A DNA stretch of 32,301 nt from a virus. Every line of letters begins with the position of its first letter. Within the stretch, counting starts at the first letter, position 1. This document shows positions 5,686 to 29,797 of this stretch, one piece after another. The DNA is taken from the IMG/VR virus record IMGVR_UViG_3300028024_000191, positions 1 through 32,301 of that record; one strand, given 5' to 3'. The translations under genes were made by a program, and so were the position numbers. Below the pieces are notes generated by a model, which saw only the letters and a list, made by a program, of their open reading frames with translations, had not been told where the DNA came from and ran no database searches.

Positions 5686-5694
5686 GGTAAATAC
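5686..5694 (+). promoter_or_regulatory. TAAATA-type motif upstream of the 5733 gene
   Basis: GGTAAATAC in plus orientation, 39 bases before the start of the 127-aa gene. It matches the motif found in minus orientation before the virion genes (for example CGTAAATAC at 25635-25627). Because strand follows the gene it precedes, this copy supports reading the motif as a promoter element. Confidence 0.4.
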
Positions 5695-5732
5695 TGGGAG
5701 AGCCGCAAAGGCCACCAAGGGAGATTACCGAA

Positions 5733-6116
5733 ATGTCTGATATTGAATTCCTCAAGCGTATACACACGAACTCACCAAAGGATCAGGGTGAGGCAAGCTT
5801 CTTCAAATTCTATCGTGAGAACCTCAAGATCGTGGAGCGATTCCTGGAGCTGGCCGAACTAATGCGGCAGTTTCAGCGCCACTACCGGGCAAGCGCGATT
5901 GTGGATCGCATCAGGTGGGATCACGATATCCGGGGCGCTGATGGAAAGTTCAAGATTGCGAATTCCAGGAAGGCCTACTTGGCTCGCTTGGCCCAAGCCT
6001 TAGAGGTGGTCCCCGAGGGGTTCTTCACCACGAAGGAACTCACCCGGTCCAAGCGTGAGAAGTTTACACTGAAGGCCTTCAAGCGTATGCGTCACGACAC
6101 TGAGCGGGACGACTGA
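5733..6116 (+). CDS. Small phage/mobile-element hypothetical protein
   Basis: 127 aa, AAGGGAG ribosome site. The central pattern (RASAIVDRIRWDHDIRGADGKFKIANSRKAYLARLAQALEVVPEGFF) resembles a widespread small protein of phages and integrative elements in which a Trp/Arg helix is followed by a FKIN/S..xAYxARL stretch and a final GFF; the function of that family is not known to me. Highly basic C-terminus. Placed after the serine recombinase terminator and driven by its own motif at 5686; convergent with the 6120-6596 gene, three bases between stops. Confidence 0.55.
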   Translation: MSDIEFLKRIHTNSPKDQGEASFFKFYRENLKIVERFLELAELMRQFQRHYRASAIVDRIRWDHDIRGADGKFKIANSRKAYLARLAQALEVVPEGFFTTKELTRSKREKFTLKAFKRMRHDTERDD

Positions 6117-6119
6117 GGA

Positions 6120-6596
6120 TTAGTGGTCTAGCACAAGGTAAAGCCAATGAGCGACAAGTCCTCCTAGACCCGCGAAACTCATCGAGAGAATCCCTGATAT
6201 GAGTGCAAGTACAGCAAGTGCGCTCCACATTTGACTATCGCTGTCCGTCTTAATTGGGGAGCGGTTCCAGTGTGCGGCCATTTTCGCGCCAAGCCAAATA
6301 CCCATAGCCACTACGACTTGATCAGGCCTGATTATTGTTAGCAGCGCAAACACGGTCCTTTCAATGTTCCCGGTAAGGCTCGGATCTACCCTTGCGGATG
6401 AATGAAGCCAAGGAAACGCCTGCTCCGTATTCCTTTCAGGGTTCTCATCGTTCCAACGGTCAATTATCCGCTGTTTCTGCGTACGATGAAAATTGCCAAC
6501 AACCGCGCCGCCCAGCGATAGCGCTATCGCGGCTCCCGCGAGTAACGCCACCAATGCAGGCCAAAGCACCTGGATAGCCGTACATACATATGCCAT
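6120..6596 (-). CDS. Hypothetical membrane protein (possible lysis-cassette member)
   Basis: 158 aa with an N-terminal membrane span (~8-34), a soluble loop rich in Arg/Asn/Trp (~35-78), and two or three more hydrophobic spans (~80-108 and 123-156). AGGGGG upstream of the ATG. It is the last gene of the leftward late operon, directly after the holin-like gene, so a lysis or late membrane function is possible, but no holin signature is definite. Confidence 0.5.
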   Translation of the reverse strand: MAYVCTAIQVLWPALVALLAGAAIALSLGGAVVGNFHRTQKQRIIDRWNDENPERNTEQAFPWLHSSARVDPSLTGNIERTVFALLTIIRPDQVVVAMGIWLGAKMAAHWNRSPIKTDSDSQMWSALAVLALISGILSMSFAGLGGLVAHWLYLVLDH

Positions 6597-6638
6597 TGCA
6601 AGCCCCCTGCTCCTACCGCCGAGCCTGCTACGTTCATT

Positions 6639-6923
6639 TTATGGCGTCAAGTCTCGCTTCAACAGCACTAACAGGGCACCCTCGAATTTCCGGATGGTCC
6701 GTTTCAAGTCCCGGATCACATCGCGAAGCCGGTTCAAGGCCTCTGCTGTTCTGAGATTCGCTTCTAGACATTCCCGCTCATGCTTGGTCAATCGCTGCTC
6801 AATCTGATCCATGCGTGTCTTCTCACCCTCGTGGCGGTGCTTCCACCAAAGGAAGCTTCCTGCGGTTGCTGCTATCCCTGTTATTCCGACTTTTGCCCAA
6901 TCCAGGGCAGTGTTCCAATCCAT
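6639..6923 (-). CDS. Holin-like single-span protein with coiled-coil tail
   Basis: 94 aa, ATG at 6923 with AAGGAG at good spacing; the longer open frame to 7031 overlaps the terminase and is rejected. One N-terminal membrane span (~9-27, AKVGITGIAATAGSFLWW) is followed by a basic stretch (KHRHEGEKTR) and a coiled coil (MDQIEQRLTKHERECLEA ... RLRDVIRDLKRTIRKF). By the positive-inside rule the C-terminus should be cytoplasmic, which fits a T7-type holin better than an inner-membrane spanin. Its place right after the large terminase also fits a lysis gene in a podovirus. No separate endolysin was found. Confidence 0.5.
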   Translation of the reverse strand: MDWNTALDWAKVGITGIAATAGSFLWWKHRHEGEKTRMDQIEQRLTKHERECLEANLRTAEALNRLRDVIRDLKRTIRKFEGALLVLLKRDLTP

Positions 6924-6936
6924 TTCTGATGTCTCC

Positions 6937-8598
6937 TTATGCGTATGAGATTCTCTTTTTGAAGGGTTGATAGGTGTTGAGCTTTCCGCCCTGGACCGGC
7001 ACATACAGGGCTTGTGGGTCTGGTGCTGCATCCGCGTGAATGTGTTTCACATTAAGCTCGTGACAACAGGAGGCAAACGCGTCTAGGTGGTCATCGTGTT
7101 GGCAATTGGGGAACTCGCTGAGCTGCTTCACGAAGTCCCGCAAGCGATACGTGCGGGATTGAATGAAGAGCTTTTGCTTCAGAAGGAGTGTTTCCACATA
7201 TCTTGCGATGAACCCGTTCTTGCCCTGGCCCTGGGTCTGCGCCTTGCTGCGAGAGCTTTCAACCACGATCAAACGACGTTGCTTGCGCTTGGCTGCTTCT
7301 CTAATCGCGTTCGCGATAAGCGGGTTGAAGTTCACCTCTACATGGATGCGGTCCAAGTGGTAAGTCTGTAGCAGGTCTATAACCTTGTCGCACATTTTGT
7401 CGTAATTCGTGCCGTTCTCCATGCTCACCGCAGGCATTGCTTCCCGCTCGAACAGATAAACGGATTGATCCACGTCACAGTATCCCACGATCCGGAGAAC
7501 CGAATCATCGTGGGACTTGCTCGCAGCGCTTGAAGGATCGAAATACGCGACGAGCTGAGTTAGTTGCTTGCCACCTATCCGGTAGGTCACCCTGTTGCTT
7601 CTTGGATCGCCCTGGATTGGGATGAACTTCTTGATCTCGATATTCTCGGAGAATTCCTGCAATAGATTGCGATCAAGCCTCGTGTCCCAGGCATTGGACG
7701 GGATCAGGCAATACTGAGCCGCGAACCCCTGAACTCCATATTCTGATTTCTGCAGATCCGCCCATGCCGCGTCCTGCCTGATCTTCCCGTCTATGAGAAT
7801 CTCAGGGTCTAGGTCCATCTGAGTTTTACGTCTGGCTTCGTCGCGCCACACTGGCCAGTAGTTGCATTCCCATTGATTGTTTTGCTTCTTCAGGTACTCG
7901 TACACCCGGTCTTCCGCGTGCGGTGTTCCGATATACAAGTGATTTGGACTTACAGCGGCGAACTCCTTGATTTTCTCGCGGAGCTTCTCTTGCTTCTTCG
8001 CGGTCTCTGAGGTCTCGATATCATCACCGAGTAGTCTGTCTGCGTGAACTCCGGTGAAATCGGATTGGAGGCTCGTACACTGGACTGAGGTGTGAAGGCC
8101 GATCATCGGCGATAGAACGGAGAAATCCTGCTTCTGCCAGTTATCCGCCTTTGTGCCTGGGTAAAGGTGTTGCACGAGTGGCCACGCCTCAATCAGCCTT
8201 TTGATAAAGCTGGAGCGCTTGCTTGCTGCGTCTCTGGTGGCCCGGACCACCACAATGGACGTGTTTGGGTCCTTGAAGAGCCAGAACAGCAAGAGGAGAC
8301 CGGCAATGTAGGTTTTGCCCCGGTGTCTATAGGCTTGGAGCTGGCGACGAATTGCGGAATCTGTCCGGTCCAACCACCTGCACATTTCGCGGTGAAATTT
8401 TGGGGTTTGGCGCTTGCCATGCCAAAGGTTGAACTCCGCTAGGAAAGCTTCGAAGTCGTACCGGTCAATATCGATGCTTTTCATCTCTAGGAGGCGGGCT
8501 TTGTAGGACTCAAGGGTTTCACCCGGAACCACGAAGAATTCCTTCTCTTCCTCCTCCTTGGTTTTGCGCTTCGCGAGATGGTGTTGAACTTTTGCCAT
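6937..8598 (-). CDS. terL: Terminase large subunit (T7 gp19-like)
   Basis: 553 aa. ATPase plus nuclease that packages DNA into the procapsid through the portal. A Walker A-like RHRGKT is at residues 91-96, after an adenine-binding type Gln/Tyr stretch, and a Walker B-like RLLGDDIE at 188-195 (D192, D193, E195). The nuclease domain follows: AYFDPSS with D354, HDDS with D364/D365, and DHLDAF with D506 near the C-terminus. The degenerate Walker A and the GDDIE form are typical of T7-like terminases. It comes late in the operon as in T7. No small terminase subunit was recognised nearby. Confidence 0.9.
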   Translation of the reverse strand: MAKVQHHLAKRKTKEEEEKEFFVVPGETLESYKARLLEMKSIDIDRYDFEAFLAEFNLWHGKRQTPKFHREMCRWLDRTDSAIRRQLQAYRHRGKTYIAGLLLLFWLFKDPNTSIVVVRATRDAASKRSSFIKRLIEAWPLVQHLYPGTKADNWQKQDFSVLSPMIGLHTSVQCTSLQSDFTGVHADRLLGDDIETSETAKKQEKLREKIKEFAAVSPNHLYIGTPHAEDRVYEYLKKQNNQWECNYWPVWRDEARRKTQMDLDPEILIDGKIRQDAAWADLQKSEYGVQGFAAQYCLIPSNAWDTRLDRNLLQEFSENIEIKKFIPIQGDPRSNRVTYRIGGKQLTQLVAYFDPSSAASKSHDDSVLRIVGYCDVDQSVYLFEREAMPAVSMENGTNYDKMCDKVIDLLQTYHLDRIHVEVNFNPLIANAIREAAKRKQRRLIVVESSRSKAQTQGQGKNGFIARYVETLLLKQKLFIQSRTYRLRDFVKQLSEFPNCQHDDHLDAFASCCHELNVKHIHADAAPDPQALYVPVQGGKLNTYQPFKKRISYA

Positions 8599-8604
8599 GC
8601 GGGG

Positions 8605-9513
8605 TTACCAGATCAGGACGACGAGGCCGGGGTTTCCTGCTGTGCCTGTTGTGGTGGTGCCTGTTCCGCCTAGTCCGGCTGATCCCGCGTAATCCGGGTC
8701 ACCGTTGCCGCCCGCCGTGGTGCCTGAGCCTCCCGCATATGTGATGTTTGAGCCCGAGCTGAATGAACCGCCCGAGCCACCGCCACCGCCTGCACCTGCG
8801 TTATTACCTACCGATGTGCCGCCTTCGCCACCGAAGTAACCAGCACCACCGCCACCGCCTCCACCGTTATTCGCCCCTGAGGTTGCTTTTCCGCCTGCGC
8901 CGCCTCCTGGGGCACCACCCGCGCCTCCGTTAGCGACTGCTCCACCTGAGCCAGCACCACCCGTGAGTGACGCGCCATCGCCGCCGTTGCCGTTTCCAGA
9001 GCCACCAGCGGCTCCCTGTGCGCCTGCTCCGCCTACGCCACCGACCGATGCGTTGCCGCCTGTGGTGCCGCCTGTGCCTGCTCCCTGGCCACCTGGGGCT
9101 CCGTTGCCACCGTTGCGGTTGCTGAGATCGCCGCCGCCACCGCCACCTCCGGCTCCAGCAATCGCGAGAACCGTGGAGCTACGGAGGAACGCGGAATAAC
9201 CGCCACCACCACCGGCTCCGCCTCCCCAGTTCCCAGAGGACCCGACACCGCCAGCCTGTCCAGGAGCACCCACCACCACAGTGAGCGTTTCACCGGCCTT
9301 CACCGCGATATCCGAGATTACATAACCGCCGCCGCCACCGTTGCCGCCGTGGCCACTGGAGAAGCCACCTCCGCCTCCGCCGCCTGCGGCCCATACCTTG
9401 ACTCGAAGAACTCCGACATTATCCGGGACAACGAAAGGGGTTCCCGTGGTCGCTGTCGCGAATGATTGCTTGTTCTGAAAGCTCTGCTCTTCGTTACCGA
9501 TGATGATTGCCAT
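8605..9513 (-). CDS. Glycine-rich phage tail/adhesin-like protein
   Basis: 302 aa. The N-terminal ~40 residues end in VLRVKVWAAGGGGGGG, then a long Gly-rich region with short GGxGG runs, a YVISDIAVKAGETLTVVVGAPG segment (~65-85), and a C-terminal GLVVLIW. This is the glycine-rich tail-protein domain seen at the tips of phage fibres; in T-even-like phages Gly-rich adhesins form polyglycine-II sandwiches that bind host receptors. It starts just after the tail-fibre stop (TAAATG), so fibre and adhesin are probably co-translated. Role as receptor-binding tip is inference from composition and position. Confidence 0.75.
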   Translation of the reverse strand: MAIIIGNEEQSFQNKQSFATATTGTPFVVPDNVGVLRVKVWAAGGGGGGGFSSGHGGNGGGGGYVISDIAVKAGETLTVVVGAPGQAGGVGSSGNWGGGAGGGGGYSAFLRSSTVLAIAGAGGGGGGGDLSNRNGGNGAPGGQGAGTGGTTGGNASVGGVGGAGAQGAAGGSGNGNGGDGASLTGGAGSGGAVANGGAGGAPGGGAGGKATSGANNGGGGGGGAGYFGGEGGTSVGNNAGAGGGGGSGGSFSSGSNITYAGGSGTTAGGNGDPDYAGSAGLGGTGTTTTGTAGNPGLVVLIW

Positions 9514-10485: not shown

Positions 10486-10490
10486 GAGAG

Positions 10491-10522
10491 AAACCCTCGA
10501 AAGATCTTCGAGGGTATTTATC
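10491..10522 (-). promoter_or_regulatory. TAAATA motif and SD-sequestering hairpin before the tail fibre gene
   Basis: Minus strand reads GATAAATACCCTCGAAGATC, then TTTCGAGGGTTTCTCTC and ATG. CCCTCGAA pairs with TTCGAGGG, which holds the only good Shine-Dalgarno sequence (GAGGG). The same design (TAAATACCCT ... AGGGT, then ATG) precedes the 29757 gene. Opening of the hairpin would be needed for translation; function inferred. Confidence 0.5.
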
Positions 10523-10524
10523 GA

Positions 10525-10571
10525 TATGTGGAAAAGTGAAACGTCCGGACCAGGAGATGGTACCGGACGTT
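10525..10571 (-). terminator. Hairpin with T-rich tail, attenuator-like, in tail-fibre leader
   Basis: Minus strand AACGTCCGG ... CCGGACGTT (10571-10563 with 10548-10540), extended by GGT/ACC, followed by TTTCACTTTTCC. It lies between the motifs at 10639 and 10515, so it could terminate or pause transcripts from the upstream motif. Confidence 0.5.
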
Positions 10572-10638
10572 CCCTGCATAGGACGTTTCTTGTGAAGAAT
10601 GCGAAGCGTATTTTTCTGAGGTATTCGCCCCGCAAACT

Positions 10639-10646
10639 TATTTAGG
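10639..10646 (-). promoter_or_regulatory. CCTAAATA motif
   Basis: CCTAAATA on the minus strand, four bases after the T-tract of the terminator at 10651-10690 and 154 bases before the tail-fibre start. No sigma70 -35 box. Part of a tandem terminator/motif array. Confidence 0.45.
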
Positions 10647-10650
10647 TGAG

Positions 10651-10690
10651 AAAGAAAAACGCCCGGCCTTAGTGGAGACTCAGGCCGGGC
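10651..10690 (-). terminator. Intrinsic terminator in tandem array
   Basis: Minus strand stem GCCCGGCCT (10690-10682) with AGGCCGGGC (10669-10661), 12-nt loop, then GTTTTTCTTT. Confidence 0.85.
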
Positions 10691-10732
10691 AGTATAGAGA
10701 ATGAACATCAATGTCTGATCGTGTTCAGAACC

Positions 10733-10740
10733 TATTTAGG
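10733..10740 (-). promoter_or_regulatory. CCTAAATA motif
   Basis: CCTAAATAGG on the minus strand (a near-palindrome), 11 bases after the terminator at 10751-10793 and only ~50 bases before the next terminator. No ORF with a ribosome site lies between, so a transcript from here would be a short RNA of about 80 nt. Confidence 0.45.
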
Positions 10741-10750
10741 TGGAATCGCA

Positions 10751-10793: not shown

Positions 10794-10868
10794 CATCTCA
10801 CAATCTACAAGGAAACCCAACATGGCTGAAGGGTTCGACCATGGCAATCACTCCACGATCAATCTTAT

Positions 10869-11714
10869 TTATGCCGCGTCTCTCGTTTTGGTGTCCGAAG
10901 CGATGCTGTCCAAGACTTGATCCATCGTGGAATCGATTATCTGGTTTGTCTCATCGCTATCCTGGATCAACGCTTGGAGCGCCTCATGAAATGCTCGCCT
11001 CTTCAACTTCAGCGGAATCACGCGGCTAGCATCTCGCTTGTATTCCTCCCGTGATCGCGGCTGCATCTGCTTCACCACTTCCTCAAAGTGAGAGGCGAAC
11101 TCATCGCGAGCGGCCCAGGCCGCATTCTCAAGTACCCTTAGATCAGCTTCACTCTCTGCAGGCGCCGGGATCGCGGTGGGCTCGATAGCTTGGGACGCTT
11201 CAATCTCTTCCGACTCTGGTGTGGAGTCCAGCTCTTGTTCGACCGGGTGAGTCTTCTTCTTGAGCTGAAGCGGCTTGAGTTCACGCATCACCGCGATTTG
11301 CTCAGCGGTGAATACCCCGGTCTCAAGCAACTTGGCACAAAGCGCTTCGTGGTATTCGATGAGATCTCCCTTCGTCGCGGTGGTGGCTTTGTCCTGGCGA
11401 AGCTGATCACGGATGAACTCCAGGCGCTTCTCCTGAGGCACGCACCAGCGTGATCCCGCTGTCTTGTCGCGCTTGTCCTCGCTTCGCTCGAATAGCGGGA
11501 CGCGGTAGTAATCGCAAAGCTGGTCCAGGAGCTGCAGACCCTTTTGGCTGAGTCTATCGTTATACACGAAGCGGTAAACATCATTGAATGTCTGACGATC
11601 CTGCGGGTTCAATTCGAGCTTGTCCAGGGCGAGCAAGCACTGTGTCAGGCCGCGCCATTCCTTCTTGCTGAATTGCATGCAAGCTTGTTTCTTATCTGAC
11701 TGGGGGAAACGCAT
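10869..11714 (-). CDS. Unrecognised charged protein downstream of the GTGTAAAC region
   Basis: 281 aa from the ATG at 11714, chosen because AGAAGGA precedes it; the frame is open to 11840 but without a ribosome site. N-terminal ~140 residues are mainly helical (SKKEWRGLTQCLLALDKLEL; DVYRFVYNDRLSQKGLQLLDQL; EKRLEFIRDQLRQD); residues ~145-205 are an acidic, Pro-rich linker; the last ~75 residues are again helical and basic (SREEYKRDASRVIPLKLKRRAFHEALQAL). Not a known virion protein at this place in T7-like order. Its upstream region has five GTGTAAAC boxes and a CCTAAATA motif, so it may be a DNA-binding regulator or replication initiator; no Rep motif is visible, so this is only a hypothesis. 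Confidence 0.7.
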   Translation of the reverse strand: MRFPQSDKKQACMQFSKKEWRGLTQCLLALDKLELNPQDRQTFNDVYRFVYNDRLSQKGLQLLDQLCDYYRVPLFERSEDKRDKTAGSRWCVPQEKRLEFIRDQLRQDKATTATKGDLIEYHEALCAKLLETGVFTAEQIAVMRELKPLQLKKKTHPVEQELDSTPESEEIEASQAIEPTAIPAPAESEADLRVLENAAWAARDEFASHFEEVVKQMQPRSREEYKRDASRVIPLKLKRRAFHEALQALIQDSDETNQIIDSTMDQVLDSIASDTKTRDAA

Positions 11715-11912
11715 GTTCGTTAGTCCTTCTGTTGGCGGACGTGAACGAATGCGACAAATCAAGTGTAAACATCTGAGCAAGTCCTCTGGGTTTTCATCAT
11801 CGTCTGTCCCTTCGATTCGATGTGCCCCCCAGGTGGACACGCGAATGTTTACACCTGAGGGGCTGATGAAAACTGAAGGGCTCAGTAACAGGCCGCTAAG
11901 CCTGTCAGAAAG

Positions 11913-11920
11913 TATTTAGG
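11913..11920 (-). promoter_or_regulatory. CCTAAATA motif upstream of the 281-aa gene
   Basis: CCCTAAATAC on the minus strand, ~200 bases before the start at 11714. The leader between holds two GTGTAAAC boxes and a GACAGGC/GCCTGT hairpin. Confidence 0.45.
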
Positions 11921-12243
11921 GCGGTAGCTACTCCGCGCGTACTTTCTTATGACGAATGTAGAAGAGTGACGAAGCGCGACAAGGGGAGCGGCGCGGAATG
12001 CCCGCCATCATTGATATGATCCCCCACATGGCCCGGCACTGGTGTAAACATCGAATGCCCTGCTCACCTAGTGAGATCAAATCGAGGCCCCTGCTCTGCC
12101 TTCATATCGATGGTCCTAGACCTAGGTGAGATCGAAGGGGCCGGAGGCGTGGCGAGCGAAGCGAGCTGACTAAGCGAGCGGCCACGAAGCGCCGAAGGCG
12201 TTGCGGAGTGGCGCGAAGCGTCGAGGGGATAGTTATCCCCTTA

Positions 12244-12782: not shown

Positions 12783-15245
12783 TCATCGCGTGATCTCGTC
12801 CAGTGAGTTCCCGATGAACCGGCGAAGCTGGCCACCGATACGCTGTTGATGAGCTTGGCGAAGTGCGTTCGTGTGGGCCTGCCGGTACCCGCGATGATCA
12901 AGCATATCCGCCACACTGTTTACAACTAGGCTGCGCCAAATCGCAGCGGTAAACAGGAGGTTCTGTCCAGGCACGTCCCGGAGCAATTCGTTCGAAAGTT
13001 TACGCAAGTTCTTGTCGCGGGTCTTGGTGTTCCCCTGTAGCTCGCCGATCAAGGCGCCAGCACTGCCGCTCATCAGATTGACGATTGAACCCGCGAGCGG
13101 TCCAAAAAAGTCAGTGCTCGATTGCTGCCGCTGTTGCTTCGCTCCAAGGATTTGGCCCAGGACATCAGAGCCGAACCGCTGCATCATGAGCTGAAGCGGC
13201 AAGCCTCCGGGAATTTGCGCGATTGCCTTGGTGATGAATTCGGGATCATCCCACTTGTACAGGGCGTTTCCCTTCGCGGCCTCTCTGGCTTGCATCCCAA
13301 TCATATTAACCGCAGTGGCCACAACCGCGAGTGCGGCAAGGCCGGTGAGCTTCGATGTTGCTGAGATGCTCGGATTCATAATCGTTGCGTAAACAGTGCG
13401 ACGATGAGCAGCCACGGCAAAGCTTGAAAACTGCGTGAGTGTCTTTGCGAGTTCCGCACGAACTGAGCCGGGTTGACCACCCAGGGACAACAGCTCCTTA
13501 TCCGCGAGCCCAGGTGTGAGAACTCCCCGTTCTACAGCGTCTTGATAAAAAGCCACGAGGCGTTGTTTCAGGCTCAGGCCCTGGGTGTTTTCGTCCGGGA
13601 GCTTGAACAGGTTTAGCTCACCATCCTCCAGGTGCGTCTTGCCGAGCTTTGCCCAATCGGATTCCCCAATGTTGAAGCGTCCAAGCTGGTACTGGAGTTC
13701 CCTGGGTAGGTCTGCGAACTTCGCCCCGTCTTGGATGAACCCACCCAAGTGGGCATCCATGATGCGGGTGGCCCCGCTCTTCATGATCCCGGACCACAAC
13801 TCTAGACCCCGGAAACGCATGATCAGATCTGTCATCTTCGCCACGTTACTGCTAAGCCTGTCCGTGGCGTCACTGCCTATCCCAAAGCGGTTCGCCACGT
13901 GAGCGTTAAGCCCCTCGCTCCACGCCCCTAGGTATCGCGCGTAATCGCGATTGCCCTTTCCCGCACTGCTCAGAATCTTTCCGATGCTCTCAAATACCCC
14001 GGCTCCGTAGAACTGTTTCATCGCATGCACCAAGACCGGGGCGTCTGTGAATCCGCTGAGCACGGCCATTCCAAGCTTTGACGCGGTGGTCACGTTGCGA
14101 GCGATACCCAGATAGCGAGAGAGCTTCTGATGTTCAGGAACCCATGTGTTCGTCATCTGCTTGAAGTGTGAACCCGCACGCTCTAGCGCCTGATCAGAAG
14201 CACCTTGCCGCTTCGCGTAGGCTTGGAGCTTCGTAAAACCTTGTCTGAAGTCAGGACCGAACAAGCGAATCGCTGCTTCTCGCTGTGCAAGCGATTCTAT
14301 CCGCGATCTCATCGTGTCAAAGAAATTGCCGGTTCCGAACTGGTCATTCACGGATTTCCAAGCCGCTCCCCGCGCGTAGTTCAGGGCCGGAGCTGTATCC
14401 GTGCCGAGTTTCTCACCAAGGATATCAGGATCAAGCACGCCCTTGTTCTGTATGACTGTGTCATAGATCGCAGCGGCCAAGGCTTGGCGGTGTGCAAGAT
14501 CGCCATGTGTCGCCGGATCGAGAGCCCGGCTCATCGCTTTCAGGAACTCTTCGCGCTTTCCCTGTAAGAGATTGTAGTCAAGACGCGTGGGCAAACCTGC
14601 GCTTGCCCAGGACTGGCGATCACCCAATGAATTGAGCTTGGCGAGTTGCTCCTGTTTCACCCGATAGAGGATGCGGGCCACATCCGCCGCAAGGGATTTC
14701 TGCACTGGCTGCTTCAGGTGGATTTGCTGATATGCCGCAACGGTTGCATCCCTTAGCCGTGGATCACGTGCAAGGCGGTTGCTATTTCCAAGCAACGCGT
14801 CAAGCTGCTTCGCCACACGTTCACCCGCGTATCCCGCATAGATCGCCTTGGTGGTGGCTTCGAGATTGCGACCTGTGCCCAATGCGTGCTGAAACACCAT
14901 CCCGTCCAGGGCTTTCCCCGCGTTCGTGCCCTGTGCCACCGCCTGATCAATCGCCTTCATATTTTCAACGTGTTTGGCTTCATTGGCGATCTTGCGAGCC
15001 GCACCACGTGCAAAGGCCTTGGTGTCACGCGCAACGACTTGGTCAAGGAGCTGCTCAATCACCTGGGACACCTCTGATCCACTCTTCGCGTTGCGAAGCT
15101 GTGCCAGGATTTGACGCGAATCAGTGCCATTGCGATCAAGCGCGTTGCTCAGATCTTTGTACAGGCCCTGAACCTTTGCCCATTCGGCAGCATCAACCGC
15201 AGCACCCAGTGTATTCTCAAATGTGATTTTGCATCCTTCGCTCAT
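12783..15245 (-). CDS. Internal virion / DNA-ejection protein (gp16-like, C-terminal part)
   Basis: 820 aa, largely helical (QVIEQLLDQVVARDTKAFARGAARKIANEAKHVEN and many similar stretches), with hydrophobic segments such as ITASKLGMAVLSGF-like (~400) and LTGLAALAVVATAVNMIGM (~645). In podoviruses of this order the large proteins behind gp15 form the inner core and the conduit that carries DNA through the cell envelope. It starts one base after the stop of the 599-aa gene, so both are translated together and may be two parts of the single large gp16 of T7. No catalytic motif seen. Last large gene before the odd 12 kb region. Confidence 0.7.
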   Translation of the reverse strand: MSEGCKITFENTLGAAVDAAEWAKVQGLYKDLSNALDRNGTDSRQILAQLRNAKSGSEVSQVIEQLLDQVVARDTKAFARGAARKIANEAKHVENMKAIDQAVAQGTNAGKALDGMVFQHALGTGRNLEATTKAIYAGYAGERVAKQLDALLGNSNRLARDPRLRDATVAAYQQIHLKQPVQKSLAADVARILYRVKQEQLAKLNSLGDRQSWASAGLPTRLDYNLLQGKREEFLKAMSRALDPATHGDLAHRQALAAAIYDTVIQNKGVLDPDILGEKLGTDTAPALNYARGAAWKSVNDQFGTGNFFDTMRSRIESLAQREAAIRLFGPDFRQGFTKLQAYAKRQGASDQALERAGSHFKQMTNTWVPEHQKLSRYLGIARNVTTASKLGMAVLSGFTDAPVLVHAMKQFYGAGVFESIGKILSSAGKGNRDYARYLGAWSEGLNAHVANRFGIGSDATDRLSSNVAKMTDLIMRFRGLELWSGIMKSGATRIMDAHLGGFIQDGAKFADLPRELQYQLGRFNIGESDWAKLGKTHLEDGELNLFKLPDENTQGLSLKQRLVAFYQDAVERGVLTPGLADKELLSLGGQPGSVRAELAKTLTQFSSFAVAAHRRTVYATIMNPSISATSKLTGLAALAVVATAVNMIGMQAREAAKGNALYKWDDPEFITKAIAQIPGGLPLQLMMQRFGSDVLGQILGAKQQRQQSSTDFFGPLAGSIVNLMSGSAGALIGELQGNTKTRDKNLRKLSNELLRDVPGQNLLFTAAIWRSLVVNSVADMLDHRGYRQAHTNALRQAHQQRIGGQLRRFIGNSLDEITR

Positions 15246-21172: not shown

Positions 21173-23574
21173 GAGTTGCCCGCCTTGTACGTAACGGTGA
21201 GGTTCAACACGTTCATGGGAACCGGGGCATCCGTCCTAAGCTGAACAGTCGGGTCATACGTGGCGCCATTCACGTTCGAGATAGCCATCTTCGCAATACC
21301 CGTCTTCAAAGGGGTTGTGGTGTCGAATGTGTCTTTATCGAACTGGCGGAAGATCACAGGGCGATCATTCACAGTCGCGTCCAAACTCCCGTCAAAGGTG
21401 ATAATCGCTTCGATCACGCGGGTGGGCCTGCCCTTCAAGGACATGCTCGCGAGTTCCGGTGCAATCGGCATTGTCTCTAATCGCGTTTCATATCGGAATC
21501 CCGCGAAGGGTTGAGCCACCGCTACCGGCAAGGTGAAGTTTCCAGAGTTGTCCGTGGTGAAATCACCGATAACCGCGAGCCCGTTATCATCGGAGATGCT
21601 CACCCGGATATCCGTGTTCGCAATGCCTTCAGTGAAGCTATAGGGGCCGGTGCTCGGGGTGGTGTTCGTTGCTTGCTCCCAGTGGTCCAAGTAAACATCC
21701 TGCTGATTCTCGAACACCTCCAGGAAAAAGCGCTGGCTTCCGTTGATTGTACGAGAGACTAGGAAGTAAGCCTCAGCGATCACGCCCACAGTGGCGTCTT
21801 GCAGGGAGTGAGCAACGGTGCAATCCCAGAAAGATCCGTTCGGGGTGTCCCAGGTGGCCCAAGCACGAACCGAACTTGAGCGATCATAGGTGAGAGTGCA
21901 GCAAATCCCATTGTTGCAGGGGACGAAAAGAATTGAACTCTGCGTGTCGCGGTAGTTCGGCAAATATGCGAGACGGCGGGGCAACTCAAGGAGCTGCTCC
22001 AGGTCCACGAACAAGTCATGAGCGTACAAAGTCAGGCTCATGCTGTTATATGCGTCTTGGGTAAAATCGTAGGTGAACCGCGAAACTGTCTTGCGATCCT
22101 GGGAGATAAAGAGGACTTGGCCCCCGATATACTCCGGGGGAATATTGGCCGAACCCACTTGGGTTTGCTGATAGCAGGTGAGCGGCGCCGTGGGTGAAGC
22201 GGCTGCGTTATTTGTCGTGCTGGCGGAAAACTCACCATCCGATGCGAGCACGATCAAGCCGGTACGCGAAGGCAGAATGTTATAGATGGTCTGATTCTGT
22301 GCTGAGTTCGCGATGAACTTAAACGTCTTGGCCGCAGTGGTCGCGGAATCGTCAAAATTGAAGTAGTCACCCGTGTTCCGCGCTACCAGTGCGTTCGGAA
22401 TGTCACGGATACCCGAGAATACCAAACGGTCCGCGTAGAACGTGGAGCATCCCGGATACCCATGAGCTGGGCTCCACATTTGTTCGGTCCAGGTGGTGCT
22501 TGCATTGGTGTTGCCCAGAGCCGTGGCCCCCACCGTGCCAGTCACACGCAGGCCGAACGCAAAGGTAACGTCCTTCAAGTCCAGGGTCGCACCATTGGTG
22601 ACGCGGACACGGAAGCAGGTGTTCCCGGCATTCGTCGGAACGTCAAACCAAGAGACGGTTCCCGCTGTCAGAGTGACCCCGGTGAGCGTTCCCACCCGCA
22701 CAGGTGCAGCGAATGCGGTTGAGCTGTCGGTCTCAAAGATCAGGTCAACCGTTGCGGTGGTGTTCACGTTGATCCCGACGATTTCCACCGCGTGCGAGGT
22801 CGCACCCCAAGAGTATCCAATCCAGCCATTAGCCCCGCAGTTGCACGCGGTACCCGTGGAACCGTCAAAGGCATTCGCTGCTGTGCCTGCGCTCCGTGCG
22901 GCGGTCCCACCTGTGGCATCCTGCGGGAATCCCGTAGTCGTGACGAATGGCTGATTCGTTACGCTTGGATCAGGAATAATGATCACGCCTTGTGCATAGT
23001 ACGAGCTGAAATACGCGAATGTACCGTTCAGGGTCAATGTGATTGAGGTGTTCGCGGTGACCGCTGAAGGTGTAAGGGTCTGCGAGACGTTGTAGCGGAA
23101 CTGAGGCAAGTGAATGAATGCGATATCCCCGATTCCCCAAGAGGTATCCCGTCCATTACGGAACAGCTTCTTCGGAGGGTACCGGGGATGCGTGAGAATG
23201 ATCCGGTCTAGCTGCTGCGACCAGCGAACCCGGCGAAGATCTGCCTTAGCGTAGGGATGAACAATTGTCGCCTTGAACACGCGGTTACGGAAGATATACG
23301 CGGTCCCATTCGGCATAAACGCGATGACATATTCTTGGTCGCGGTTGAAGGAATAGGTCATGATCAGGGCATACTGAAAGTCCGCCCGTGAGATTCCGGT
23401 GAACTCGTAAACATTTCCCAGGCCACGGCGACGCTGTACGCCCCCGTGTGGGAGGATCACCACGTTATTCACATCGAGAGCGCCGCTGAGATACTCCTTT
23501 AGGTCTGTGCGGCCCCTCATGTACGGGCCAAGGTAACCGGTATTGAAGGAAACGAGCGGCTGTTTAAACGGCAT
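21169..23574 (-). CDS. Tail tubular protein B (T7 gp12-like nozzle)
   Basis: 801 aa, the tail nozzle through which DNA leaves the virion. Signatures: KEYLSGALDVNNVVILPHGGVQRRRG near residue 30, FADRLVFSG-type segment (YADRLVFSGIRDIPN, ~385), VASDGEFSAS region, and SRFTYDF. A central insertion (~215-340) looks like an extra beta-sandwich, perhaps carbohydrate-binding (GWIGYSWGATSHAVEIVGINV). The ATG overlaps the tubular A stop (TAATG). Confidence 0.9.
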   Translation of the reverse strand: MPFKQPLVSFNTGYLGPYMRGRTDLKEYLSGALDVNNVVILPHGGVQRRRGLGNVYEFTGISRADFQYALIMTYSFNRDQEYVIAFMPNGTAYIFRNRVFKATIVHPYAKADLRRVRWSQQLDRIILTHPRYPPKKLFRNGRDTSWGIGDIAFIHLPQFRYNVSQTLTPSAVTANTSITLTLNGTFAYFSSYYAQGVIIIPDPSVTNQPFVTTTGFPQDATGGTAARSAGTAANAFDGSTGTACNCGANGWIGYSWGATSHAVEIVGINVNTTATVDLIFETDSSTAFAAPVRVGTLTGVTLTAGTVSWFDVPTNAGNTCFRVRVTNGATLDLKDVTFAFGLRVTGTVGATALGNTNASTTWTEQMWSPAHGYPGCSTFYADRLVFSGIRDIPNALVARNTGDYFNFDDSATTAAKTFKFIANSAQNQTIYNILPSRTGLIVLASDGEFSASTTNNAAASPTAPLTCYQQTQVGSANIPPEYIGGQVLFISQDRKTVSRFTYDFTQDAYNSMSLTLYAHDLFVDLEQLLELPRRLAYLPNYRDTQSSILFVPCNNGICCTLTYDRSSSVRAWATWDTPNGSFWDCTVAHSLQDATVGVIAEAYFLVSRTINGSQRFFLEVFENQQDVYLDHWEQATNTTPSTGPYSFTEGIANTDIRVSISDDNGLAVIGDFTTDNSGNFTLPVAVAQPFAGFRYETRLETMPIAPELASMSLKGRPTRVIEAIITFDGSLDATVNDRPVIFRQFDKDTFDTTTPLKTGIAKMAISNVNGATYDPTVQLRTDAPVPMNVLNLTVTYKAGNS

Positions 23575-24152
23575 TAGAGGCGGACTCCATATCTAGCAGT
23601 CTGCCAGCGGCTTTGACTGATCAGGGTTTGCGGTCCCTTTCCGATTGCATCGCGAGACGAAGCCATGGCGAATTTATCTTTGATCTCCTGGGCAAGACGA
23701 TTCTGTGTGTTGCCGTCCCCCACGAGGGGTTCACACGCCTCATAGGCGAGCATCGCAATAAGGTAGTGAGTGAAGAGAGGCGGAAACTCCCGCTCATCGA
23801 GATCACGCGTATACTTCAAGAATACACGCTGGGACTTCCGGAGGACTCGTCCCGCCTCTTCCGCATAGGTCACGGTGGCCCCGGTTTGATCGATACAAGT
23901 GCCGCCGCTCACGTAGTCTGAGGGGAGCAAGAACCGATAGGCCCAAGTGGTGTCCGTGGGTGCCGCGAGTTCTCGCGAGAGTTCCACAGTGAATTTGTTG
24001 AAGCTCCAGTCATAGCTGGCGAGTGCGGCTTGTTTGGTCGGCTCATAGAGCTGGCCGAACACATCGGCCTCAAATGAACCCTCGTCCAGAGATTGGACTT
24101 TGGCCTTGCCTAGTTTGGTGCTTGCGGTGCTGATAATGTCGAGATTGTTCAC
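23574..24152 (-). CDS. Tail tubular protein A (T7 gp11-like adaptor)
   Basis: 192 aa with GTG start at 24152 and a strong GGAGGAAA ribosome site. Typical family pattern: MNNLDIISTASTKLGKAKVQSLDEGS, ALASYDWSFNKFTVELS, WAYRFLLPSDYVS, LYEACE-like YEACEPLVGD, and a closing RWQTARYG. It connects portal and nozzle in short-tailed phages. Preceded by its own terminator and CCTAAATA motif, so it can be transcribed apart from the capsid genes. Confidence 0.9.
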   Translation of the reverse strand: MNNLDIISTASTKLGKAKVQSLDEGSFEADVFGQLYEPTKQAALASYDWSFNKFTVELSRELAAPTDTTWAYRFLLPSDYVSGGTCIDQTGATVTYAEEAGRVLRKSQRVFLKYTRDLDEREFPPLFTHYLIAMLAYEACEPLVGDGNTQNRLAQEIKDKFAMASSRDAIGKGPQTLISQSRWQTARYGVRL

Positions 24153-24170: not shown

Positions 24171-24178
24171 TATTTAGG
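24171..24178 (-). promoter_or_regulatory. CCTAAATA motif before tubular A
   Basis: CCTAAATATCC on the minus strand, between the terminator at 24184-24210 and the GGAGG of the gene. Spacing to the GTG start is 19 bases. Confidence 0.5.
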
Positions 24179-24183: not shown

Positions 24184-24210
24184 GAAAAGGCCAGCCGTTT
24201 CGGGCTGGCC
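24184..24210 (-). terminator. Intrinsic terminator after capsid/decoration genes
   Basis: Minus strand stem GGCCAGCC (24210-24203) and GGCTGGCC (24196-24189), 6-nt loop, then TTTTCGTTT. Likely controls the high capsid to tail ratio. Confidence 0.9.
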
Positions 24211-24648: not shown

Positions 24649-24666
24649 TTCTGTTTTCCTCCCCTA

Positions 24667-25482
24667 TTAATCCGCAACGTTCGCAGAGACGATACGCGAG
24701 CTATCGAGCCCGGCAGCGCCCACATACATGTATCCGGCAATCTGCCAAGAAAGCTGCTGCGGTACCCAATCAAACTTGAGCTGGATGTCCTGGAACACGG
24801 CGAGTCCAACAGAGTTCTTCTGATAGCCAAACCGCTTGTGCTGGCCTGCCGTGGGAACCGGCAAGTAGTTGTGCTCGATCACGTTGAAGCCCTGAATGTT
24901 CGTGACGTAACCCTTGCGGACAACCTGATCTTGAATAGCAAAGTTGTTCGCGATGGTGCTGTCAGTGGCCATGTGCTTCATGCCACCCGTGTGGGTGACC
25001 ATGTAGCGGTCCTCGTTTTCAACGTCGAAGGCACTGAGAGCCATTGCCATGGCATTCATGCCTGCGTTGTTCAGAGTGTTCGCGGTGGGCAGCGTGACAG
25101 TCTGTAGACCAGAGATACCGGACATCGCTGAAATGATGATTCCGTCAACCTGACGGCCAAGATCAGAAAGGATCTTCTTCGTCAGGACGTTGCGGTAATC
25201 GATCCGCGAGCGGGCCATATCGAAATTATCGATGATGAAAGCAGAATAAATCTGCTGGCTCTGGCAGGGGACTTTGACAGGGTTCTGCGAGTTGTATGTC
25301 ACGGCATCCGCGCGGGACTTGCCAACGGTAGCAGTGCTGTTGTCAAAGGTAATGAAGTTGTAGATGTCGGCTCCCGTTACCTGCACTTCCTGCACAGTAC
25401 CGCGAAGCTTCGAAGTCATCTGAGTTGCGAGAATGAGAGCCTCTTCGCTCCATTTCTGCGCGACAATTGCGTCAATCGACAT
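24667..25482 (-). CDS. Major capsid protein
   Basis: 271 aa from the ATG at 25482, with GGAGGAATTC as ribosome site; the frame is open to 25518 but without an alternative signal. HK97-fold pattern: N-terminal AIVAQKWSEEALILATQMTSKLRGTVQEV, a loop with FDNSTATVGKSRADAV, a helix/core segment with RNVLTKKILSDLGRQVDGIIISAMS, then GFNVIEHNYLP and IVSANVAD. Position after scaffold and before the decoration gene confirms it. Smaller than T7 gp10 (345 aa). Preceded by a terminator, motif and a 145-nt leader, consistent with strong separate expression. Confidence 0.9.
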   Translation of the reverse strand: MSIDAIVAQKWSEEALILATQMTSKLRGTVQEVQVTGADIYNFITFDNSTATVGKSRADAVTYNSQNPVKVPCQSQQIYSAFIIDNFDMARSRIDYRNVLTKKILSDLGRQVDGIIISAMSGISGLQTVTLPTANTLNNAGMNAMAMALSAFDVENEDRYMVTHTGGMKHMATDSTIANNFAIQDQVVRKGYVTNIQGFNVIEHNYLPVPTAGQHKRFGYQKNSVGLAVFQDIQLKFDWVPQQLSWQIAGYMYVGAAGLDSSRIVSANVAD

Positions 25483-25627
25483 GATTTGAATTCCTCCGTT
25501 TGTCGTTGAGGAACCCAATTCAGTGAAGTTCTCCGTTTCCGCTCAGGAGGGTCCGGGCTTGTGCTACGCAGTGAAGTTATCCGGCCTGATCCGAGCTTCT
25601 CGGGCTTGTTAATCAGCGTTCTGCGAG
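25483..25627 (-). promoter_or_regulatory. Long untranslated leader of the capsid gene
   Basis: About 145 bases between the TAAATA motif and the capsid start with no credible ORF. It contains two copies of AACTTCACTG (minus strand; plus coordinates 25521-25530 and 25569-25578) and a GAGAAGCTC-type small hairpin. Long structured leaders can stabilise an abundant mRNA; this is inference. Confidence 0.4.
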
Positions 25628-25635
25628 TATTTACG
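25628..25635 (-). promoter_or_regulatory. TAAATA-type motif before the capsid gene
   Basis: CGTAAATACTCG on the minus strand, nine bases after the T-tract of the terminator at 25644-25667. Confidence 0.45.
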
Positions 25636-25643
25636 GCAGACAT

Positions 25644-25667
25644 GAAAAAGCCCGCACAAGGCGGGCT
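25644..25667 (-). terminator. Intrinsic terminator after scaffold gene
   Basis: Minus strand stem AGCCCGC (25667-25661) with GCGGGCT (25655-25649), short loop, then TTTTTC. It separates portal/scaffold from the capsid unit. Confidence 0.9.
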
Positions 25668-25672
25668 CTCTC

Positions 25673-26566: not shown

Positions 26567-26864
26567 TTAGATTTTCCTCATCCTTAGCTAATTCGACCAC
26601 CATAGGGGCCGGGGTTCTTGCATCCATCCGCTTAAGCCACTCATACAGTTGCAACGCGGCCTTCTCTGTCTTGAACAGGAGCTGGCGGAGAGATCCGCTC
26701 TTGCGGGTACTCCAAACTATTCCGTTGTCTCTCATCCATTTCTTGGGAATCTCAAACCTCTGCTCGTCGGAGATACCAAAGAACATTCCCCAAACGCGTT
26801 CCGTGATTGACACTTCCCAGAGCAGGCTAGTTGTCGCGGTCCTTGAAAGAACTGGCTTCGTCAT
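26403..26864 (-). CDS. Hypothetical basic protein, overlaps scaffold gene by 164 nt
   Basis: 153 aa. Its ATG overlaps the previous stop (ATGA). The first ~95 residues look folded (RVWGMFFGISDEQRFEIPKKWMRDNGIVWSTRKSGSLRQLLFKTEKAALQLYEWLKRM); the last ~55, in the overlap, are basic and low in complexity (KHERAKQRGTGERKSRSRKLQRDKSKSG). It resembles small nucleic-acid-binding phage proteins only in composition. Sits between the Bbp19-like gene and scaffold. Confidence 0.6.
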   Translation of the reverse strand: MTKPVLSRTATTSLLWEVSITERVWGMFFGISDEQRFEIPKKWMRDNGIVWSTRKSGSLRQLLFKTEKAALQLYEWLKRMDARTPAPMVVELAKDEENLNEHRKHKQRIEWSIKHERAKQRGTGERKSRSRKLQRDKSKSGLAKPVPEPVSSE

Positions 26865-27133
26865 CTGGATAACTTCTTGATCGTGTCGAAGAACTCACGG
26901 CGCCCAAGCACGTAGAGAGCCTTATCCTCCGTGGGTGGGTTCTCTTGGTGAATCGGGCTCACGAGTGCTTTGTATTCGAGGAAGTCCAGAACCGTCTGGC
27001 CCTCAGGGGTGGAGAACAGACGTTTACACGCGGAGAGCATATCCGCCTCGTCCACGCGAAGCCCGGACGGCAGCGTGATAGTCTTGATCAGGGGTTTTTG
27101 TGGCGGGGCTTTCCCGTGGGGATCATAGGCCAT
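26861..27133 (-). CDS. Bbp19-like small phage protein
   Basis: 90 aa. The core CKRLFSTPEGQTVLDFLEY ... ALYVLGRREFFDTIKKLSR fits the Bbp19-like domain of podophages (F-x-TPEG-x-VLDxL then a GRRxxxxxI/L helix), always found beside the portal gene. Function in the virion is not established. It is coupled to the next gene by ATGA and has an unusual 30-nt leader with CAGT-type repeats. Confidence 0.65.
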   Translation of the reverse strand: MAYDPHGKAPPQKPLIKTITLPSGLRVDEADMLSACKRLFSTPEGQTVLDFLEYKALVSPIHQENPPTEDKALYVLGRREFFDTIKKLSR

Positions 27134-27142
27134 TGAAAATTC

Positions 27143-27174
27143 CAGTCAGTTACTCAGTTACTGAGCTATTTACT
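27143..27174 (-). promoter_or_regulatory. CAGT-repeat leader and TAAATA motif before the Bbp19-like gene
   Basis: The portal stop (CAGTAA) runs into CAGTAAATAG (27174-27165), then CTCAGTAACTGAG, a 13-nt palindrome (27154-27166), then TAACTGACTGG and the start at 27133. A very similar block precedes the 4551 start (CAGTCACTCACTCAGTCACTG in plus orientation there). Confidence 0.45.
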
Positions 27175-28837
27175 GTTGACCGGAATTTCCTGGGTTCTGT
27201 CCCTGCATCCCCTGGAAAGCCGTGAGCAAGGATTGAATATCGACGGAACCGCCGTGGGGATCGCCCTGTGCCTGTCCTGACTGGGTCGCGGACTGCGCCA
27301 CTTGGGCCATTTGCTGCGTTAGTTGCTGGCGAAGCTGGTCCGCCTGTTGAGGATCACGCATCCAGCGAGCGGGAACACCCAGGGCCGGAGCGATTTCACG
27401 CAATGCCTTCTGAGTGTCAATCTCGGTGCCCACGGATTGAGGACCGAAATTCTGAGAGAGCTGCATAATCGTTTGAAGTCCGGCCTGGGCCTCAGCCTGC
27501 TTCAGCAAGCGGGTGAGCGCGGCGTTTGTATCCACCTGAAACAGCATGCTCAGGCTTTGCACCTGGGAACTGATCCCAAGGGATTTCAATTGAGCGGCAT
27601 CAACCACCCGGAGTTCTCCACGGCGGAAAAGCCTAGCGCAGGTTTGCTCAGCGATTGGCTTTAGAAATTCGCGCTCGATTTTCAACGCGGGTTCACCGAT
27701 GAGGGTTTCCCATTGCTCCTTCAGGTACTGGATGGTTTCGGCTTTCGCATACTGAATCCGGTCAGAACTCGGCATCTGTGGCGCCACCATGTGGGCGTTG
27801 ATCTGCTGTCTAATGCGGTCAATGCTGGTGAAATTCAATTCTGGACGCCCAGGGAACTCCAGGGGCTGGAATGGCTCGGATTCGTACCCAATCACGCCAC
27901 CCGGCTGGATTAGGTCGCGGATTTGAGCGAGGTCTCCCATGGATGCATTCTTGCCCTGCCACATCCCGTTGGCGGCGAATGCCAGGAACACAAGAGAGTC
28001 CTTGACCATCTGATTGACGCTGCGAATATCCGGGAGTGCTGTTCTCGCGGGTGAGTTTCCCCAAGGCGAGCCCGTGATGGTGGACCACCTCGCGACGATG
28101 AACGGGTTCATCTCAAGCTCTGCCTGATTGATGATCTTGCACCGGCTCCCATAGGTCACCCGATAGTCAAACTTGCCGGTGTCCTCGTTCGGAATCACCC
28201 GTTCAAGGATCGTGAATTTCTTCACCGGGGAAGTCTTCGCCTGATCTTGAAGTTCACTCGGAAGCTTCCACGAGGACTTCCGCATCAACATGCGTCCGGT
28301 CATTTGATGACGGCGAAACACGCTATCAATTTTGCTCTTCGTCTTATCCAGGAGGATATAAAGCTCATCGACGGGAACCGGAATGTAGCTGAGCGGCTCG
28401 TCCGGTACGTCATGCACCATCACGCAGTAGGTTCCGGCGCAAATCCCGTCATTTAACGCCTCTGTGGTGGCGTCATAGAAGTTCCGGTTCACGAAGTGCG
28501 AATGTAATTTGATGTTTGCGTCTTCCAGTGCTGCACCCAGCGAGCCACGCAGGGCCGGAGCATTCGGGAACGTGTCACGAATGGTGATCTCAGCCCACGA
28601 GGAACTCTTCGGGACGAGGTTTTTCATACTCCAGGTATTCAGGTTACGCATCGCAAGCGTTGCTGTGGAGTCGTACTGCTGAGTACGATCAAGCGGGCTC
28701 TCATCCTGGGAGAGATCAACGCGGAATCGACGCTGAGGAAGAACGAAGTTGTAAACGTCTTTCAGCTCGGGTTCGTGAATAAGGCGTTCTTGCTTGGCTC
28801 TCTCGAATAGCTTCTTTACGTCGTCTTGAGAGATCAC
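27170..28837 (-). CDS. Portal (head-tail connector) protein, T7 gp8-like
   Basis: 555 aa with GTG start overlapping the previous stop (GTGA). Family marks: MNPFIVARW followed by GSPWGNSPARTALPDIRSVNQM, a conserved stretch of T7-like portals; an N-terminal KELKDVYNFVLPQR-like region (PELKDVYNFVLPQRRFR); a C-terminal Gln-rich tail (QQADQLRQQLTQQMAQVAQ). It forms the ring at the packaging vertex and binds the terminase and the tubular A adaptor. Normal size for the family (~510-560). Confidence 0.93.
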   Translation of the reverse strand: MISQDDVKKLFERAKQERLIHEPELKDVYNFVLPQRRFRVDLSQDESPLDRTQQYDSTATLAMRNLNTWSMKNLVPKSSSWAEITIRDTFPNAPALRGSLGAALEDANIKLHSHFVNRNFYDATTEALNDGICAGTYCVMVHDVPDEPLSYIPVPVDELYILLDKTKSKIDSVFRRHQMTGRMLMRKSSWKLPSELQDQAKTSPVKKFTILERVIPNEDTGKFDYRVTYGSRCKIINQAELEMNPFIVARWSTITGSPWGNSPARTALPDIRSVNQMVKDSLVFLAFAANGMWQGKNASMGDLAQIRDLIQPGGVIGYESEPFQPLEFPGRPELNFTSIDRIRQQINAHMVAPQMPSSDRIQYAKAETIQYLKEQWETLIGEPALKIEREFLKPIAEQTCARLFRRGELRVVDAAQLKSLGISSQVQSLSMLFQVDTNAALTRLLKQAEAQAGLQTIMQLSQNFGPQSVGTEIDTQKALREIAPALGVPARWMRDPQQADQLRQQLTQQMAQVAQSATQSGQAQGDPHGGSVDIQSLLTAFQGMQGQNPGNSGQQ

Positions 28838-29028
28838 AAGTTATAGCCCCCGTTCTGGTTATTCGGGACACCTAGGTATCCGGTTTGCTGACTAGCGAGA
28901 GCAGCACGGCCCTGAAGGGCAGCGGCTCTTGCACGAGCATCGCTATCGGCCTGGGCAGCGGCTGTATCCTCTGCCTGAACCGTGGGCTTTTGCACCTTTG
29001 CGACTTTGGGAGAACTGAAACCACACAT
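28834..29028 (-). CDS. Small virion protein (gp6.7/gp7.3-like)
   Basis: 64 aa: MCGFSSPKVAKVQKP at the start, an Ala/Gln/Asp-rich helix (AEDTAAAQADSDARARAAAL), and a C-terminal NQNGGYNL. T7 gp6.7 starts MCFSP and gp7.3 ends GGGINI; both are small head proteins lost from the capsid at ejection. Immediate position before the portal matches. The MCGF start is shared with the gp14-like protein. Confidence 0.6.
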   Translation of the reverse strand: MCGFSSPKVAKVQKPTVQAEDTAAAQADSDARARAAALQGRAALASQQTGYLGVPNNQNGGYNL

Positions 29029-29034
29029 GACTTT

Positions 29035-29757
29035 TTACCCCAGTAGATTCCAAGACTGGAAACCCGCGCGACGGCGGAGATTGCGGAACGGATCGTTCTG
29101 ATTGCCCGGTCCCGAATTGCCGGAGCCACCAATCTGGGCACCCGGATCACCAATCGTTCCCAAGTCCGCGTTGTCCACGAAGCCGGGGCTTGAACCGTTG
29201 CTGGTCTGTCCCTGCTGAAGCAAATTCGTCGGAGTAGCTGGGGCCGGAGTTGAGTTGATCTGATTGATCACGTTATTCATGAGAGAGCGCATGTTTGAGT
29301 CTGGGCTCGGGCTCGCAGGGCTAGAAACAGAGCTGACGGGCTTGCTCGGGGTCGTCACGCTGTTTACGCTACGTCCGCCTCCGCCATCACCATTACGGCC
29401 AGCTCCGCCACCAGTGCCATTGCCTCCTGTGCCACCACCGGCCCCAGCGCCAGGACCGCCACCGGCAGCATTGCCACCGGGTCCTCCACCATCAGATCCG
29501 TGGCCCGTGTTGCTGCCGCCGTTTCCGGGTCCGTTACCTGCGGCATTGCCGCCGTTCTTCTCGCCCACGAAGCTCCAAAGGCCAGTGGACGGGTTCACGG
29601 TGCCCTCGTTGCCGAGAGCCCGCTTGATCTTGGAAAGTTCACTCGGATTGATCTGGATTAGAACTGAGTCTTTCACTCCGTCCTTCGGATCAGTCATACC
29701 CAGTGAAGTGAGATGTTTGATTGCTGCTTGCGTTACCGCATCAATGGTTTTCGCCAT
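29035..29757 (-). CDS. Gly-rich virion protein upstream of portal
   Basis: 240 aa. N-terminal ~65 residues are folded-looking (AVTQAAIKHLTSLGMTDPK ... LSKIKRALGNEGTVNPSTGLWSFVG), then Gly/Asn-rich low complexity (~68-128), a Ser/Pro/Val linker, and a C-terminus RNLRRRAGFQSWNLLG. A conserved terminal Trp-Asn-Leu-Leu-Gly plus basic run suggests capture by head proteins. First gene of the leftward virion operon, with its own motif and leader hairpin. Exact function unknown. Confidence 0.65.
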   Translation of the reverse strand: MAKTIDAVTQAAIKHLTSLGMTDPKDGVKDSVLIQINPSELSKIKRALGNEGTVNPSTGLWSFVGEKNGGNAAGNGPGNGGSNTGHGSDGGGPGGNAAGGGPGAGAGGGTGGNGTGGGAGRNGDGGGGRSVNSVTTPSKPVSSVSSPASPSPDSNMRSLMNNVINQINSTPAPATPTNLLQQGQTSNGSSPGFVDNADLGTIGDPGAQIGGSGNSGPGNQNDPFRNLRRRAGFQSWNLLG

Positions 29758-29797
29758 AAAAAAATACCCTCTGAAGAGAATTCAAAGGGTATTTAGG
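29758..29797 (-). promoter_or_regulatory. CCTAAATA motif and SD-sequestering hairpin, start of virion operon
   Basis: Minus strand CCTAAATACCCT (29797-29786), then GAATTCTCTTC, AGAGGGTATT and T-rich bases before the ATG at 29757. AATACCCT pairs with AGGGTATT, which hides GAGGG, the only ribosome site. Same plan as at 10491-10522 before the tail fibre. Rightward of this, up to the DUF3800 start, lies an AACACA/TGTGTT hairpin at 29832-29848. Confidence 0.55.

Follow-up and report, generated by a model that had tools for sequence, protein, structure and literature searches.

The eight-base motif CCTAAATA, mostly followed by C, recurs in the gaps before virion genes of a T7-like temperate phage and is likely the core of a phage-specific late promoter that consists of a -10 element, has no -35 element, and works like the late promoters of T4. 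The DNA analysed, here called the window, is the complete 32,301-base IMG/VR record IMGVR_UViG_3300028024_000191 (G000). As a distant sister phage (G001) has the identical word in the corresponding gaps, it is very probably the phage's own start signal for late genes. To our knowledge, it is not known how virion genes are switched on in HTVC010P-like and related T7-like phages that lack an RNA polymerase; the motif would supply one such lineage with a concrete conserved promoter sequence and could be used as bait to identify its recognition factor.

A T7-like virion module lies on the minus strand of the window and comprises, by PHROG matches, the portal, scaffold-like protein, capsid, tail tube A and B, internal virion proteins, tail fibre, and terminase; a tyrosine integrase marks the right end, and a serine resolvase is found on the left side. 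The best matches of the portal, at ~22-23% identity, are Methylophilales phage MEP301, the HTVC010P group, and Yersinia phage YeP5. One close relative, IMGVR_UViG_3300028024_000020 (G001), was found by scanning viral contigs with tail tube B; viral contigs scanned with the portal, the capsid, and the terminase one at a time returned no relative, nor did two scans of bacterial genomes, and the conservation evidence presented here covers G001 only. Virion proteins of the two phages are 22-78% identical overall: 78% for the internal virion protein, 73% for the tail fibre, 63% for tail tube B, 52% for the portal, 29% for the terminase, and 22% for the capsid. The terminase (6937-8598) and capsid (24667-25518) are far more diverged than the internal virion protein and tail fibre, and this divergence against conserved neighbours suggests that genes of the virion module have been exchanged. 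Both records begin or end near gene boundaries, with an integrase at one end, and their scanned ORFs yielded no recognisable replication gene or repressor. Since both seem to have been trimmed at gene boundaries, a regulator may lie outside them and part of the phage may be missing.

All nine sites listed in an initial annotation of the window are present at its coordinates. The annotation described TAAATA cores that are mostly preceded by CC, followed by C, and often placed after an intrinsic terminator; the core itself is found throughout, and each of the three accompanying features comes down to five of the nine sites. CC precedes the core at 29797, 24178, 11920, 10740, and 10646 (the others read CG at 25635, GA at 10522, AG at 27174, and GG at 5686 on the plus strand), C follows it at five sites, and a terminator-like hairpin with a T-run closely precedes it at 25635, 24178, 10740, 10646, and 10522. 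By the gene table, the ~2 kb of intergenic DNA contain 10 copies of TAAATA and the 30 kb of coding DNA two (4.87 vs 0.07 per kb), a contrast that is partly ordinary because TAA is a stop codon. Dinucleotide shuffling of the intergenic pieces, which controls for the stop-codon effect, gave a mean of 0.54 TAAATA against 8 observed and 0.05 CCTAAATA against 5 observed, with 0 of 500 shuffles containing as many in either case; the core is enriched between genes and far above chance, and the annotation's reading stands against both coding and shuffled DNA. Independently in G000 and G001, CCTAAATA is also the top-ranked over-represented intergenic 8-mer.

Alignment of 13 sites from the two phages yields a single strong block, (C/G)(C/G)TAAATA followed mostly by C. 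Column 13, eight bases after the hexamer, is a purine at 13 of 13 sites, a column picked post hoc in an alignment whose orthologous pairs are not independent; a purine at this place fits a transcription start site. The lack of a TTGACA partner, as first described, is borne out: there is no conserved -35 (the information content from -40 to -16 relative to the core reaches at most 0.65 bit), the most conserved upstream columns are the T-runs of terminators, and a sigma-70 scan for the TTGACA/TATAAT pair calls none of the listed sites. These properties bear on an alternative in which host RNA polymerase with a host sigma factor uses TAAATA as a weak -10 while a phage activator bound upstream, in the style of P2 Ogr or Mu C, confers late timing. 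Activators of this kind are used by P2- and Mu-type temperate phages, and the alternative gains from the fact that neither a phage sigma factor nor a phage RNA polymerase was detected; however, TAAATA matches TATAAT poorly and is passed over by the sigma-70 scan, upstream conservation consists of terminator T-runs rather than a box at fixed distance, and the first late gaps of G000 and G001 have almost no common upstream sequence. Activation of a host-type promoter is therefore considered unlikely.

Conservation in G001, whose absence would have counted against the annotation's reading, is decisive for the reality of the observation. Of six orthologous gaps, five contain TAAATA in both phages (null mean 0.011), namely those before the first late gene, capsid, tail tube, 323-aa gene, and tail fibre; in the sixth, a plus-strand gap, G001 has TAAGTAC instead. 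The orientation of the cores with the gene that they precede, also part of the initial description, is seen in 14 sense matches (null mean 0.54) and 0 antisense matches in orthologous gaps. Almost no upstream sequence is common to the two phages in the first late gap, and yet core and hairpin are retained; their persistence amid diverged DNA is the strongest evidence that the element works. The late-gap TAAATA signal is absent in distant relatives with the same virion module (YeP5, MEP301, TPWB-05, 22O28-1, and BcepC6B), and G002 contains no CCTAAATA. These motif-less distant relatives count against the promoter reading, as do the single close relative, the C-rich bases downstream of the core, and the fact that no sigma-like gene or RNA polymerase was detected.

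Upstream of the portal, CCTAAATA followed by C (29790-29797, minus strand) precedes the first late gene (29035-29757), its G001 ortholog being CCTAAATAC at 31700-31693. The inverted repeat CCCTTTGAATTCTCTTCAGAGGG (29767-29789, minus strand) comes directly after the motif and supplies, with its 3' arm, the gene's Shine-Dalgarno sequence; G001 has the same layout. The weak site AGTAAATA (27167-27174, minus strand) overlaps the portal stop codon and consists of that codon plus ATA, and because the same TAA-ATA overlap is found at the portal end of G001 (29165), this site is ambiguous. The major capsid gene (24667-25518) is preceded by CGTAAATA followed by C (25628-25635) and the tail tube A gene (23574-24152) by CCTAAATA (24171-24178), both on the minus strand and both with CCTAAATAC at the equivalent place in G001. 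Intrinsic terminators on the same strand, recognised from the sequence, lie just upstream of the capsid motif, between the scaffold and capsid genes (25649-25667; conserved in G001), and upstream of the tail tube motif (24189-24210). Before the 323-aa gene (10869-11840), CCTAAATA followed by C (11913-11920, minus strand; CCTAAATA at 13103-13096 in G001) is accompanied by a long structured leader, in which both phages (window 11780-11920; G001 12960-13103) have a C-rich/G-rich hairpin with z of -5.2 and -3.4, respectively. On the plus strand, GGTAAATAC (5686-5694) precedes a 127-aa gene (5733-6116); G001 has CGCTAAGTAC at the aligned place, which makes this site only partly conserved.

Since many sites come after a terminator, each promoter would open a new transcription unit. 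RNA polymerase, directed by a late specificity factor that is most likely sigma-like, would read the single -10-type element and start transcription about one helical turn downstream of the core. Separate units would then serve the first late gene with the portal, the capsid, the tail tube with the core proteins, the 323-aa gene, and the tail fibre; at several of these promoters intrinsic terminators would end the preceding unit.

The initial annotation saw neither a T7-type RNA polymerase nor a phage sigma factor in the window, and dedicated searches agree: G000 and G001 have no match to RNA_pol (T7 control 1e-109), gp55 (phrog_234), or sigma-70 region 2 (PF04542), the controls being positive. 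A three-sequence gp55 profile likewise found nothing in either record, both of which may be incomplete (T4 control of the gp55 searches 2.5e-70), and no sliding clamp is among the PHROG matches of the scanned ORFs. The 127-aa protein (5733-6116), which is basic and helical, is 62% identical in G001, and adjoins the serine resolvase, was rejected as the factor: its model is poor (pLDDT 56), and its gp55 matches are noise outside the sigma region. Among phages it has one weak match only, in a Tunturiibacter phage. A zinc-ribbon-like 99-aa protein was likewise rejected as an Ogr-type activator, as the full Ogr-type cysteine pattern is absent.

A further alternative is that the core serves a T7-type single-subunit RNA polymerase whose gene lies beyond the trimmed record. 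The T7-like virion module favours this, as does the placement of sites ahead of the capsid and tail-fibre genes, which recalls the T7 promoter positions; T7 class III promoters occupy comparable places in the T7-like virion operon. T7-type promoters are conserved over ~20 bp and start with G, whereas the stretch conserved here is far shorter, at ~9 bp, with C rather than G after the core and no GGG start. The RNA_pol search that readily recovers T7 detects no such polymerase in either record, and the best portal matches include pelagiphages of the HTVC010P group, one of which is reported to have no RNA polymerase and only a few sigma-70-like promoters, near replication genes (PMC10504331). A T7-type polymerase is for these reasons highly improbable.

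The likeness to T4 late promoters that the initial annotation proposed extends to the TAAATA core, the absence of a -35 block, and the late virion genes served. T4 late promoters lack a -35 and consist of an 8-bp box that precedes the start by one turn; the closest published consensus to the present motif is (a/g)CTAAATA of Aeromonas phage Aeh1, which departs from T4 exactly where this motif does, in the first two bases (PMC2988020); C at -12 is common to both. As in T4 and Aeh1, the putative promoter is one 8-bp -10 element built on TAAATA, present in many copies before virion genes on either strand. Unlike T4 late TATAAATA (gp55-gp33-gp45), the motif has CC in place of TA, with no gp55 found; TATAAATA itself is absent from G000 and G001, where all listed sites have the TAAATA core. 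Downstream of the core, columns 6-8 and 10 are mostly C, whereas T4 late promoters are AT-rich, and the phage is not a T4-like myovirus but a temperate, T7-like podovirus. Because neither gp55 nor an AT-rich downstream region was found, the motif is not classed as a T4-type late promoter. A second parallel is the podovirus phiEco32, whose gp36 promoters (tAATGTAtA) have one -10-type element, no -35, and starts 6-8 bp downstream (PMC8948821); its consensus is different, and it has a recognisable sigma factor whereas none was detected here.

The initial inventory had the cores right and lacked the hairpins after them, the occlusion of ribosome sites, and the array of three motifs conserved ahead of the tail fibre. 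Most sites have a predicted hairpin that begins within 0-9 bases of the end of the core (combined Stouffer z -6.4). In both phages, the first late gene and the tail fibre are preceded by an inverted repeat that begins at the base right after TAAATA (CCCTC...GAGGG; CCCTT...AGGG at window 29789) and whose 3' arm doubles as the Shine-Dalgarno sequence, 7-9 bases ahead of the start codon. Folding of four sites by partition function predicts this sequence to be 0% unpaired in read-through RNA and 23-68% unpaired in RNA with an assumed start at +11 from the core. In RNA that reads through from upstream, the ribosome-binding site of these genes would stay closed in a hairpin, and RNA from the late promoter, without part of the 5' arm, would have it free for translation, as for the T4 lysozyme gene e, where a late promoter with an occluding hairpin is documented (PMC3014915). 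The hairpins of T4 genes e, soc, 49, and I-TevI are alike in burying the Shine-Dalgarno sequence with the late-promoter core on the 5' side; here, in contrast to gene e, the layout stands at the first late and tail-fibre genes rather than at lysozyme, and the occlusion is predicted only. This layout in an unrelated phage type, before virion genes, would point to convergence or exchange.

The same position of the core, often between a terminator and a 5' hairpin, would also suit an RNA processing site, with read-through late RNA cut at AU-rich UAAAUA to leave protective 5' hairpins on the mRNAs. Six invariant bases and flanking CC exceed the needs of AU-rich cleavage, however, and several sites (29797, 11920) have no preceding terminator while strong terminators stand just upstream of others, making processing a very unlikely account of the motif compared with a late promoter.

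Viral contigs were scanned for the promoter-hairpin composite with the exact pattern TAAATACCCTC-N(6-16)-GAGGGTTT, which returned 14 stretches, two of them G001 itself. Serratia phages 3M and MAM1 (158-159 kb), whose genomes encode gp55, have the composite before the endolysin (muramidase) gene, where TAAATACCCTCTGATATACCAACAGAGGG lies directly upstream (3M 3014-3052; MAM1 1829-1867). By analogy to T4 gene e, TAAATACCCTCTGATATACCAACAGAGGG is a candidate late promoter with an occluding hairpin; because several of the other stretches may be chance occurrences or terminators, and late promoters in related ViI-like phages are reported as not yet identified (PMC3184105), the composite in 3M and MAM1 is an analogy and not proof.

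The gap before the tail-fibre gene contains three cores in both phages (window 10738, 10644, and 10520; G001 12023, 11926, and 11813) with a terminator between each, spaced by 94 and 124 bases in G000 and by 97 and 113 in G001. All three window motifs are on the minus strand: CCTAAATA at 10733-10740 (GTAAATA at 12023 in G001), CCTAAATA at 10639-10646 (CCTAAGTAC at 11926), and, directly before the gene, GATAAATA followed by C at 10515-10522 (CCTAAATAC at 11815-11808). The third is followed by the inverted repeat CCCTCGAAGATCTTTCGAGGG (10494-10514, minus strand), whose 3' arm is the tail-fibre Shine-Dalgarno sequence. The tail-fibre start was set at the ATG at 10485-10483 because the position of the ribosome site agrees with the start of the PHROG tail matches, which begin at residue 51 of a longer frame, the same ATG.

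After each of the first two motifs comes a mini-unit of 5' hairpin, linker, and terminator, also on the minus strand, with an equal layout in G001: the first (10655-10732) would yield an RNA of ~70 nt and the second (10536-10638) one of ~95 nt. Folding is well below shuffles in three of the four mini-units of the two phages (z -5.4 and -4.0 in the window; -5.7 and -2.1), and Rfam has no match for them; from these predicted folds, the two mini-units before the tail fibre are candidate short RNAs. As a tentative wider proposal, these temperate T7-like phages may read a minimal CCTAAATA promoter through their own unrecognised factor, either of a sigma-like family without detectable similarity or encoded outside the trimmed provirus, and the same promoter may drive the two short structured RNAs. 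The array extends over 10536-10740 in the window and 11836-12023 in G001; the sequences between the cores have diverged and the layout has been kept.
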